The notes beneath the pieces are model-generated. The model had not been told where the DNA came from. It did no database searches and saw only the letters and a list, made by a program, of their open reading frames with translations. This document shows, one piece after another, positions 38,955 to 41,885 of a stretch of 42,031 nucleotides of DNA; the first letter of the stretch is position 1; each line of letters starts with the position of its first letter. This stretch comes from Pelagibacteraceae bacterium (lineage in GTDB: Bacteria > Pseudomonadota > Alphaproteobacteria > Pelagibacterales > Pelagibacteraceae): assembly GCA_009693705.1 (NCBI GenBank), contig SHWS01000012.1:1-42031 (forward strand), written 5' to 3'. The position numbers and the translations under genes are program-made.

Positions 38955-39356
38955 ATGCTCTATTTTGCCTACGGTAGTAATCTTAATCATTTTCAAATGA
39001 AGCGAAGATGTAAAGATAGTATTTTTTTAAAAAAAATTAATCTTAAAGATTTCAAATTAACTTTTCGCAGCAAACATAAAGTTGCTGACATAGAGACTAA
39101 AAAAAAATCAATAGTGCCAGGTGCGTTATTTGAAATATCTAAAAGTGATGAAAAAAAATTAGATATTTATGAGGATTGCCCAATTTTGTATAAAAAATAT
39201 TATTTTAATTATTATGGAAAAAAAGTCATGACTTATACTATGGTCAAAAAAACCTCTTTTAAGTACCCAACTGAAAGGTATTTAAATGTCATCAAACGCG
39301 GCTATAAAGATTGTGGTCTTGATCAAAAATTTCTCAAACAAGCTTTATTGCTTTAA
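38955..39356 (+). CDS. Gamma-glutamylcyclotransferase-like protein
   Basis: A 133-residue protein of the GGCT/AIG2-like fold. The N-terminal FAYGSNL (residues 4-10) is the substrate-binding loop, GALFEIS begins the barrel strand and the catalytic Glu73 is in LDIYEDCP. The family releases 5-oxoproline from gamma-glutamyl amino acids or glutathione-derived peptides; the real substrate is unknown. It follows the CinA-like gene with no gap, so the two form an operon. Confidence 0.85.
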   Translation: MLYFAYGSNLNHFQMKRRCKDSIFLKKINLKDFKLTFRSKHKVADIETKKKSIVPGALFEISKSDEKKLDIYEDCPILYKKYYFNYYGKKVMTYTMVKKTSFKYPTERYLNVIKRGYKDCGLDQKFLKQALLL

Positions 39357-39387
39357 ATACTAGGGTAATTAATTATTTTTCGTCTAA

Positions 39388-39447
39388 TTAAGCGCCATAC
39401 ATAAGTGCTACACCAATAAGCGCACCAATTATTAGATAAGTTAACAT
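39388..39447 (-). CDS. 19-residue single-pass membrane microprotein
   Basis: A short open frame reading MLTYLIIGALIGVALMYGA, almost wholly hydrophobic, ending at TAA (39388-39390). On the minus strand the ATG is preceded by AAAAAAAAGGAAATAGC, with an AAGGA Shine-Dalgarno seven bases before the start, an unusually good site for this window. It lies alone in the 240-base gap between two plus-strand genes, in the opposite direction. The frame, the ribosome-binding site and the transmembrane composition together make it credible. The function is unknown; it could be a subunit-stabilising peptide. It is too short for most gene finders. Confidence 0.55.
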   Translation of the reverse strand: MLTYLIIGALIGVALMYGA

Positions 39448-39575
39448 GCTATTTCCTTTTTTTTAAATTTACTTTAAAATTTTTTGGATATTAAACCATT
39501 TAAATTAAGTAAATTAGTCAATTAGCCAATCAAATTAGGTTTTTGATCTTTAAATTAATGTTGCTAATAACTAAA

Positions 39576-39581
39576 TATAAT
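39576..39581 (+). promoter_or_regulatory. -10 box of the NAPE-PLD-like gene
   Basis: TATAAT 16 bases before the ATG at 39598; no convincing -35 (TTAATG at 39555-39560 with a 15-base spacer is the nearest). Confidence 0.4.
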
Positions 39582-39597
39582 TTTTATTGAATTTGTT

Positions 39598-40584
39598 ATG
39601 AAAAAAAAACCTTATCATCATTTACCAGATGGAACTTTTAGAAATCCAGAAGGATCTCCCAAAATATCCAAAAAAACAAATTTTTCATACAAAGCTTTCA
39701 ATGAAGAAAAAAAGAAATTAGATATGACCGTCCCAAAGGAACTTGTCATAGATAAATCTATAGTCTTGAACAATTTAAAAAAATTTAAAGACGAAGATTA
39801 TATTGCTTGGATTGGTCATGCTACTTTCTTGATTAAACTTGGCAATACTACAATAATAACTGATCCTGTATTTTCTAAAAATGCAGGACCTTTAATTTTT
39901 GGACCAAAAAGATTTACTGAACCAGCCTTAAAACTTAATGAAATTCCAAAAATTGATCTTTTTTTATTAACTCACAACCACTATGACCATCAAGATATGT
40001 CCACAATCAGAAAATTTCCATTTAAAGAAGCTAAAGTATTAGTTCCTCTTAAGCTTGGGAAATACTTTAATAAATATCAAGATGTGAATGAAATGGATTG
40101 GTATGATGTAATTCAAGTAAATAATGATTTAAAAGTTACTTTTTTACCTGCAGTTCATTGGTCAAAAAGAAGTTTAACAGATACTAATAAAACACTTTGG
40201 GGAAATTTTTTAATTGAATATAAAAACCAAAAAATCTTTTTTGCCTGTGATACCGGTTACGGAAATATTTATAAAGAGTTAGGAAAAAAATTTGGCCCAC
40301 TAGATCTTACAATAATTAATATTGGCGCTTATGATTTTAGACCAATGTTTGATAAAACAATTTATCATACAAATCCTGAAGAAGCTCTAAATGTTGCTCA
40401 AGACTTAAAAAGTAGAAAAGTTATAGGCATGCATTGGGGTACCTTTGTATTATCACTTGAACCTATAATGGAGCCACCAATTCGTTTTAAAAATAACGCA
40501 GATAAGTATGGATTTAAAAAACAAGATGCGATTATATTTAAAATTGGAGAGATAAACTCGTTAAAAAATATACTTTCAAATTAA
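39598..40584 (+). CDS. Metallo-beta-lactamase-fold hydrolase, NAPE-PLD/RomA-like
   Basis: A 328-residue metallo-hydrolase. The N-terminus is basic and not a signal peptide. The domain starts WIGHATFLIKLGNTTIITDPVFS; the metal motif is THNHYDHQD (His126, His128, Asp130, His131), with further ligands in AVHWSKRS, ACDTGYG and GMHWGTF. This is the pattern of the family that includes N-acylphosphatidylethanolamine phospholipase D and bacterial RomA/UlaG-like proteins. A phospholipid-related role is possible but only inferred. It is monocistronic and borders the repeat-rich patch. Confidence 0.87.
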   Translation: MKKKPYHHLPDGTFRNPEGSPKISKKTNFSYKAFNEEKKKLDMTVPKELVIDKSIVLNNLKKFKDEDYIAWIGHATFLIKLGNTTIITDPVFSKNAGPLIFGPKRFTEPALKLNEIPKIDLFLLTHNHYDHQDMSTIRKFPFKEAKVLVPLKLGKYFNKYQDVNEMDWYDVIQVNNDLKVTFLPAVHWSKRSLTDTNKTLWGNFLIEYKNQKIFFACDTGYGNIYKELGKKFGPLDLTIINIGAYDFRPMFDKTIYHTNPEEALNVAQDLKSRKVIGMHWGTFVLSLEPIMEPPIRFKNNADKYGFKKQDAIIFKIGEINSLKNILSN

Positions 40585-40630
40585 AAAATTTTAATCATCA
40601 AGAAGGCATTTTTAGCGAATATCAATAATA

Positions 40631-40760
40631 ATCAAAAAACTATTTAGCATCATCATTCTGGGTTTCTAATTAGACCCCTCTAAAATCCCAAAGCAAAATC
40701 AAGATTAATACAGCCATGACTCTGGGTGCTTTATTCGGTAATCTTCAATGGTGAAAAAAA
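40631..40760 (+). repeat. Copy A of the ~115-bp repeat
   Basis: First of three direct copies. It opens with AAAAAACTATTTAGCATCAT, coding for KKLFSIIILG and then a stop, here with ATC in place of the ATG. A spacer of about 50 bases (TAGACCCCTCTAAAATCCC...) follows, then a 12-codon frame MTLGALFGNLQW (40716-40754), whose TGA lies within the ATGGTGA that starts the next frame. From the A-run to that ATG it is 114 bases. It follows the NAPE-PLD-like gene, 46 bases after its stop. Confidence 0.85.
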
Positions 40761-40846: not shown

Positions 40847-41122
40847 ATGAATTGGAATATTTTAGCTTGGGTTATAATAATGTTTTTTGTTTTAAGCTGG
40901 TCTTGGGGTATGACCAAACCAAATTATTTAACTAGATTTAATTTATTTGCAGTTAGTTGGTGGTGGATTTGTATTATACTAGTATTATTCATAAAAATTT
41001 CTCCTTTTTATCTTTTTTTAGTAATGCCTCTTGCAGTAATTATTGGATATGTTTTACCTGGTTTGCCGGGTAGTGTTGTAATGTGTTCATTAATATCTGC
41101 TGTATTATATTTTATTAAATGA
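40847..41122 (+). CDS. Hypothetical three-TM membrane protein
   Basis: A 91-residue hydrophobic protein that I do not recognise, with predicted helices at about 4-20, 31-50 and 52-88 (the last possibly two, split by PGLPGS). It is rich in tryptophan. It lies between repeat copies A and B: it starts three bases after the leader frame of copy A, and its stop overlaps the ATG that begins copy B (ATGA). A short inner-membrane protein is the most that can be said. Confidence 0.6.
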   Translation: MNWNILAWVIIMFFVLSWSWGMTKPNYLTRFNLFAVSWWWICIILVLFIKISPFYLFLVMPLAVIIGYVLPGLPGSVVMCSLISAVLYFIK

Positions 41123-41252
41123 AAAAACTATTTAGCATCATAATTCTGGGTTCCTAATTAGACCCCCTCTAAAATTCCAAAGCAAAATCAAGATTAATAC
41201 AGCCATGACTCTAGGTGCTTTATTCGGTAATCTTCAATGGTGAGAAAAATAT
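41119..41252 (+). repeat. Copy B of the ~115-bp repeat
   Basis: The best preserved copy. ATG at 41119 opens MKKLFSIIILGS then TAA; the spacer has one extra C relative to copy A (ACCCCCT); MTLGALFGNLQW is at 41205-41243, with a silent CTG-to-CTA change; and the final ATG at 41237 is the start of the MORN gene. From the A-run to that ATG it is 115 bases. Copies A and B differ at only a few positions over this length. Confidence 0.88.
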
Positions 41253-41752
41253 TTTATATCATATTTTTTAGTTTGTTCTTAACTGGCTCTGCTTATGCAG
41301 AATGTACTCAAGGTGATTGTGTTAACGGCCAAGGAACTTACACATGGCCTGATGGAACCAAATATGTTGGTGAATTTAAAGATGATAAAGGAAATGGCCA
41401 AGGAACTTTGACATATGCTAATGGAAACAAATATGCTGGTGAATTTAAAGATGATAAAAAAAATGGCCAAGGAACTGTAACATTTGCTAATGGAGACAAA
41501 TACGTTGGTGAATTTAAAGATGATAAAAAAAATGGCCAAGGAACTTTCGCATGGCCTGATGGAGAAAAATACGTTGGTGAATGGAAAGATAATAAAATTC
41601 ACGGCCAAGGAACTTATACATATGCCAATGGAGACAAATATGCTGGTGAATTTAAAGATGGCTTAAGAAATGGCCAAGGAACTTATACATTTGCTGATGG
41701 TAGAATTGAAAAAGGTATCTGGGCAGATAGTGAATTAGTTCAACCGAATTAA
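41237..41752 (+). CDS. Secreted MORN-repeat protein
   Basis: A 171-residue protein with a signal peptide (MVRKIFYIIFFSLFLTGSAYA then ECTQG) and six tandem MORN repeats of 23 residues, consensus GQGTYTYANGDKYVGEFKDD-K-N. It ends in a short acidic tail after ADGRIEKGIW. MORN repeats bind phospholipids or proteins, and in bacteria such exported proteins are of unknown function. The first bases of the gene, including its start codon, belong to repeat copy B, and copy C begins at its stop. The coding DNA is itself a 69-bp tandem repeat. Confidence 0.85.
   Translation: MVRKIFYIIFFSLFLTGSAYAECTQGDCVNGQGTYTWPDGTKYVGEFKDDKGNGQGTLTYANGNKYAGEFKDDKKNGQGTVTFANGDKYVGEFKDDKKNGQGTFAWPDGEKYVGEWKDNKIHGQGTYTYANGDKYAGEFKDGLRNGQGTYTFADGRIEKGIWADSELVQPN
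41326..41740 (+). repeat. 69-bp tandem coding repeats (MORN array)
   Basis: Six units of 69 bases (23 codons). GGCCAAGGAACT recurs at every unit start and GGTGAATTTAAAGATG in most. The units are similar enough at DNA level to allow copy-number change. Confidence 0.85.
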
Positions 41753-41885
41753 ATAAAAAAACTATTTAGCATCATCATTCTGGGTTTCTAATTAGACCCC
41801 TCTAAAATCCCAAAGCAAAATCAAGCTTAATACAGCCATGACTCTGGGTGCTTTATTCGTTAATGTTCTCGATGGTGAAAAAACT
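41753..41885 (+). repeat. Copy C of the ~115-bp repeat
   Basis: It begins directly after the MORN stop, here with ATA in place of the ATG (ATAAAAAAACTATTTAGC). The spacer and MTLGALF block are kept, but the end is altered (TTCGTTAATGTTCTCGATGG), so the short frame runs on instead of stopping. From the A-run to the ATG at 41872 it is 116 bases. Head and tail of this copy are nearly identical to each other over about 30 bases (one C/T difference in the core). Confidence 0.85.

Follow-up and report, generated by a model that had tools for sequence, protein, structure and literature searches.

A probable 19-codon membrane micro-protein gene in a SAR11-type genome

Can an open reading frame (ORF) of 19 codons, lying alone in an intergenic gap of a bacterial genome, be a gene, and if it is, what could so small a protein do? 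Gene callers commonly skip ORFs shorter than about 30 codons, streamlined SAR11 genomes are expected to hold little that is unused, and 19 residues are barely enough for one membrane-crossing helix. The frame considered here (Table 1) lies in a window of 42,031 nucleotides, by which we mean the whole stretch of DNA that was analysed. The genome is of the SAR11 type, given that all 80 loci with a relative of one neighbour of the frame, the metallo-beta-lactamase-fold hydrolase (MBL) gene, come from Pelagibacter-group records (Pelagibacteraceae, Pelagibacterales or Pelagibacter). As described below, the evidence from two genomes indicates that the frame is very probably a protein-coding micro-gene under purifying selection.

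The frame and what chance would provide

The frame, its strand, coordinates and peptide sequence are exactly those given in a first-pass annotation of the window. The gap in which the frame lies alone on the minus strand, put there at 240 bases, measures 241, from the end of the gamma-glutamyl cyclotransferase-like (GGCT) gene at 39356 to the start of the MBL gene at 39598, and the AAGGA box is present but six bases, not seven, from the ATG. The peptide contains no charged residue, carries Tyr4 and Tyr17 near its ends and has a GxxxG motif at residues 8-12 (G8 and G12) that is common to the window and to the one other genome found to encode it, G299. In its length, hydropathy (1.98) and presumed helix, it matches the single-span small membrane proteins (ORFs of less than about 60 amino acids that form mostly one hydrophobic helix); conservation as coding sequence, which also marks this class, is provided by one orthologue in one relative and is thin. 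The gene would be of the single-span small membrane protein type and is apparently lineage-restricted.

Table 1. Features of the micro-gene locus (window coordinates)
Feature	Position	Strand	Basis and remarks
Micro-gene, 19 codons MLTYLIIGALIGVALMYGA + TAA	39388..39447	-	Frame read directly; orthologue in G299 (L147:1522-1581)
Presumed transmembrane helix, single, hydrophobic, charge-free	39391..39447	-	Sequence reading; mean Kyte-Doolittle hydropathy 1.98
AAGGA, Shine-Dalgarno-like box	39454..39458	-	6 bases 5' of ATG (AAGGA-AATAGC-ATG); absent from G299
Gamma-glutamyl cyclotransferase-like gene (GGCT; GGACT/AIG2)	38955..39356	+	Pfam GGACT, E 1e-7; convergent with micro-gene; neighbour in both genomes
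Metallo-beta-lactamase-fold hydrolase gene (MBL)	39598..40584	+	Pfam Lactamase_B_2, E 1.6e-35; divergent from micro-gene; absent beside G299 copy

The features of the frame itself are within the reach of chance. In a sample of 257 kb of the same genome (the window and 16 further stretches), the gaps contain 131 ORFs of 13-40 amino acids with an ATG start, 10 of them preceded by a Shine-Dalgarno core and 5 with a mean hydropathy of at least 1.8. Only one, the 39388-39447 frame, combines the two features, which is unremarkable alone because about 0.4 such ORFs would be expected if the features were independent. Good Shine-Dalgarno sites are indeed rare, as the first-pass annotation held: cores occur at 34 of the 234 crude gene starts in the 257 kb, a rough figure since these starts are the first start codons of ORFs of at least 100 codons. 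The size of the gap, which had been read as a hint of retained function, turns out to be a weak argument, with 13 of the 156 crude gaps, measured between ORFs of at least 70 codons, reaching 241 bases or more; such gaps are uncommon, not rare. Promoter-like sites number three in the stretch scanned in each genome, against shuffle means of 2.1 (window) and 3.2 (G299), and are at chance level. In each stretch, one of them is placed such that it could drive the peptide (39602-39574, minus strand, in the window; L147:1478-1505, plus strand, in G299), but the spacing to the ATG is not the same. Neither stretch contains a terminator-like site. The case for a gene is one of conservation, not of the frame's own features.

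Conservation of the frame in the closest relative

G299 is the closest relative found, with 88% identity to the window over 4.3 kb, a match that stops at window position 39479, 32 bases before the ATG of the peptide. We regard it as the nearest because identity to the window's proteins reaches 93% for CinA and 88% for SfsA, above all other loci compared (at most 85%). At the same site and on the same strand, beside its GGCT-like gene, G299 encodes MLTYLIIGALIGVALMYYS (L147:1522-1581), which shares 17 of 19 residues with the window peptide and has its start and stop at unchanged positions. Four base differences separate codons 1-17 of the two genomes and all four are silent; four more in codons 18-19 change G-A to Y-S, replacing both residues. 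The frame is retained without indels (52 of 60 positions identical), and its flanks, with 25 of 34 and 22 of 32 identical columns, contain indels; the difference in identity is modest (one-sided Fisher p 0.03).

The synonymous/nonsynonymous comparison called for in the first-pass annotation favours a coding sequence. For codons 2-19, pS is 0.357 and pN 0.075, from path-averaged counts that score one of the four changes in codons 18-19 as silent; the four neighbouring genes of the same genome pair give pS of 0.365-0.398 and pN of 0.031-0.100. With sites treated as independent, the probability of so few replacements in codons 2-19 is 0.03 if the neutral rate per site is 0.2, 6e-4 if it is 0.3, and 4e-5 if it is 0.357, the silent rate of the ORF itself. 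If all four changes in codons 18-19 are taken as replacements, these values rise to 0.08, 0.003 and 2e-4. With the count restricted to codons 2-17, a cut made after inspection of the data, they are 3e-4, 3e-6 and 1e-7. The whole signal comes from two genomes and eight base changes. The same changes alter two residues in the claimed frame, compared to four to six in the other five frames. The gene is credible because its silent divergence matches that of the neighbouring genes while codons 1-17 show no replacement. Accordingly, the proposal that this is a real membrane micro-protein gene very probably stands: G299 keeps the frame with its start and stop in place, 17 of 19 residues are unchanged, and the changes in codons 1-17 are all silent. 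That the frame is translated and under selection appears highly likely from these patterns of substitution.

The ribosome-binding site fares differently. In G299, the leader reads AAAAAAATAAC-ATG and AAGGA is missing, so that translation there must begin without this box, and the strong site that had been offered as an argument for the gene loses its force. A start without such a core is seemingly shared by most genes of the window genome, as judged from the crude starts. Close relatives lacking the frame or this site had been named as grounds for rejection; in the single relative that has the frame, the frame is retained and the site is lost.

Distribution and genomic setting

Beyond these two genomes, none of those searched yielded a convincing homologue. 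A DNA search with a 91-base query against 399 genomes of the genus, including the window's own, yielded one true match outside the window genome, that in G299 (E 1.4e-20). At E up to 0.1, 341 of the 399 genomes match. The AT-rich sequence that precedes and includes the peptide start (window 39438-39470) has many short matches throughout the genus, likely due to low complexity, and the best match besides G299 and the window genome (E 8.6e-5, 31 bases), which covers mainly the AT-rich stretch preceding the ORF and the first 10 ORF bases, was set aside. Among 217 genomes of the genus that are at least 85% complete, no genome but the window's own matched at an E-value of 1e-5 or lower (G299, at 82% completeness, falls outside this set); absence from the other 216 implies that the gene is either narrowly distributed or too fast-evolving for such a DNA search. 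The 50 genomes picked via 50 of the 80 MBL loci contain no match. With the G299 DNA as the query, G299 alone was matched among 399 genomes (seemingly nearly the same draw, with the window genome presumably outside it), and the G299 peptide, searched against 131 genomes, matched only the window genome, G299 being presumably outside that draw. The genome sets overlap and many genomes are 55-85% complete, so that any single absence is weak.

Protein-level searches add no further homologue. The search of Pelagibacterales suggested in the first-pass annotation produced no convincing match, and the orthologue came from the DNA search instead: the peptide had one chance-like match among 200 other genomes of the genus (in G198, E 0.26, on the strand opposite a 745-residue open frame, attributed to chance) and none among 396 other genomes of the order. 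Its only match in its own genome is itself. When ORFs of 13-40 amino acids in 145 loci and the window were scanned for similarity, nothing was found, the best non-self score being 30 against a self score of 91. A crude regular-expression filter applied upstream of MBL in 80 relatives recovered unrelated frames alone, at one locus (L044; the flank of L045 is short). Among the flanks downstream of GGCT, 2 of 50 usable ones contain the peptide, those of the window and G299; the set comprised 51 loci (the window genome, 49 others of the 66 GGCT-matching genomes, and G299), from which L188 was excluded as its contig ends early. Other small hydrophobic ORFs in these flanks look unrelated.

Among characterized families, structures and viruses, the picture is similar. 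Pfam and NCBIfam, which contain models for CydX, KdpF and similar small-subunit families, return no family at E up to 10, in a search to which a 20-residue query lends little power. The peptide matches no solved protein chain; a weak match to the PHROGs family phrog_16083 (function unknown; E 0.18) was judged to be due to chance; one exact degenerate peptide pattern has no match in viral contigs, and the gap sequence none in phage records. Nor does the peptide appear in the titles and abstract openings, among the matches listed, of the literature on Pelagibacter, SAR11 or Prochlorococcus small proteins, microproteins and smORF ribosome profiling, which include few subscription papers.

The setting of the gene is conserved on one side and variable on the other. 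Of 58 loci from other genomes (L085-L113 and L115-L143, with some genomes repeated), 54 have genes for SfsA and CinA-like proteins adjoining GGCT (the exceptions are L090, L105, L122 and L143), and the 3' side of GGCT is a hot spot of gene content, with roughly a dozen arrangements, counted by eye, in 16 relatives (loci among L115-L142; window 39357-39597). In one of the loci, L107 (G011:C7:42080-42476), the GGCT-like gene is split into overlapping pieces that lie in two reading frames, which may reflect a frameshift in the genome or the assembly. Within the flanks compared, some of them short, none of the 80 MBL loci contains GGCT, cinA or sfsA and none of the 58 GGCT loci contains MBL; as the two do not coincide in any of these loci, the GGCT-MBL junction is seen in the window genome alone, at this hot spot. 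In G299, MBL is replaced by two genes, one for tRNA-Leu (L162:5912-5997) and one that is NAD-kinase-like (Pfam NAD_kinase_C, E 1.9e-11). The window contains no tRNA gene. As the first-pass annotation stated, no partner gene is recognised beside the micro-gene. Its 5'-side neighbours differ between the two genomes.

Farther along the window, a 117-base repeat is present in three copies (40630-40746; 41119-41235, 72% identical to the first; 41752-41868, 97% identical to the first) that flank a 91-amino-acid ORF without a Pfam match and a MORN-repeat gene built of 69-base tandem units, near the contig end at 42031. This region is possibly a repeat-bordered cassette array at which the assembly stopped.

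Alternative explanations and the possible role of the peptide

Could the frame have arisen by chance in an AT-rich gap and been conserved by accident? On features alone, 257 kb should contain approximately 0.4 ORFs of this kind, a single relative among those searched carries the frame and has lost AAGGA, and the whole-ORF test is weak (0.03) if the neutral rate is as low as 0.2. However, the silent divergence, close to that of the neighbouring genes, shows that there was time enough to decay, yet codons 1-17 are free of replacements, and identity is lower, with indels, on both flanks of the ORF; a chance origin is therefore unlikely. That the peptide is instead the remnant, N- or C-terminal, of a once longer membrane protein would agree with the patchy distribution next to a variable region, but the start and stop positions are the same in both genomes and no convincing similar protein emerged from the genus or order searches, which leaves this reading highly improbable.

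Two further alternatives were considered. In favour of a membrane-active toxin of a type I toxin-antitoxin pair, restrained by an antisense RNA, are the short hydrophobic single-span peptide, its patchy distribution and its place at a hot spot of gene content. Such toxins, however, typically have charged ends and this peptide has no charged residues; moreover, one copy was found in its own genome, and no sequence in the window reaches the gathering score of an Rfam family. No promoter-like match is placed for an antisense transcript in the scanned stretch of either genome (a weak, consensus-based scan that an unknown promoter type would escape), and the plus-strand match at 39441-39469 in the window faces away from the ORF. 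We consider a toxin very unlikely. The same degree of doubt attaches to a conserved regulatory element in RNA or DNA, or a leader peptide, as opposed to a protein acting as such. A small conserved block within a gap is what an element of this kind would leave, but RNA folding is no better than in shuffled sequences in the two genomes (z 0.91 and 0.35), the base changes fit one reading frame best, and in both genomes the next gene downstream, GGCT-like, runs convergently, which would leave a leader peptide with nothing nearby to control.

Several known small membrane proteins bear on what a peptide gene of this kind might do. YohP of E. coli (27 amino acids) is inserted post-translationally by SRP via SecYEG or YidC and forms SDS-resistant dimers that require Gly15 (PMC7549839). 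Like YohP, the peptide is nearly all one helix, presumed to be transmembrane, and the glycine-dependent packing found in YohP would have a counterpart in it. The peptide is shorter (19 amino acids), has no flanking lysines and possesses a canonical GxxxG that is missing from YohP, by a comparison in which no sequence tool was used. By analogy, the insertion route of YohP could be usable by a 19-residue peptide. CydX, the 37-amino-acid small subunit of cytochrome bd oxidase, of which 80 out of more than 300 homologues were unannotated (PMC4325964, PMC6005532), is likewise small, hydrophobic and easily overlooked. It is encoded with cydAB, whereas the peptide has no adjacent oxidase gene and no Pfam match, its neighbours being GGCT-like and MBL genes in the window and tRNA-Leu and NAD-kinase-like genes in G299. 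KdpF and AcrZ accompany a transporter or a pump, and AcrZ may modulate the pump AcrB (PMC10903887; for AcrZ also PMC7267776); the peptide would act alike if it packed on a transporter or pump, although no such operon lies beside the micro-gene and neither Pfam nor NCBIfam gives a match. Surveys with Pro-SMP finder (PMC10903887) and in GMSC (PMC11364881) report small proteins, some of them encoded in gaps and many of them single-span and of no known function; with 57 coding bases (60 with the stop), the micro-gene just touches the bottom of the 60-180 nt range of Pro-SMP finder (PMC10903887).

We favour, with moderate confidence, the explanation that a micro-gene of a narrow SAR11 (Pelagibacter) lineage makes a single-span packing-helix peptide of the inner membrane; the packing helix is preferred because of the analogy with YohP and AcrZ. 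The 19-residue peptide would most likely insert into the membrane after its release from the ribosome and reside as a single span in the inner membrane. There, the conserved GxxxG face (G8 and G12) might mediate self-dimerisation or packing on one helix of a bigger membrane protein whose gene lies elsewhere, a putative partner that the packed peptide would tune or stabilise. That the peptide serves as an accessory helix in some larger complex is a tentative suggestion by analogy. It may possibly help to stabilise a respiratory or transport complex, as raised in the first-pass annotation.

The eye-catching strong ribosome-binding site proved to be the non-conserved part of this locus, and intuition was misled by it. 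The contrast between silent and replacement changes in sister genomes, with neighbouring genes as a yardstick, is a cheap detection test for genes of this size. A free-standing, charge-free gene of 19 residues, kept by selection in a streamlined ocean bacterium at a site of rapid turnover and with its partner distant, may represent a lineage-specific membrane subunit or regulator outside the family models, and the presence of a selected 19-codon gene in a streamlined genome suggests that more such genes have been overlooked.
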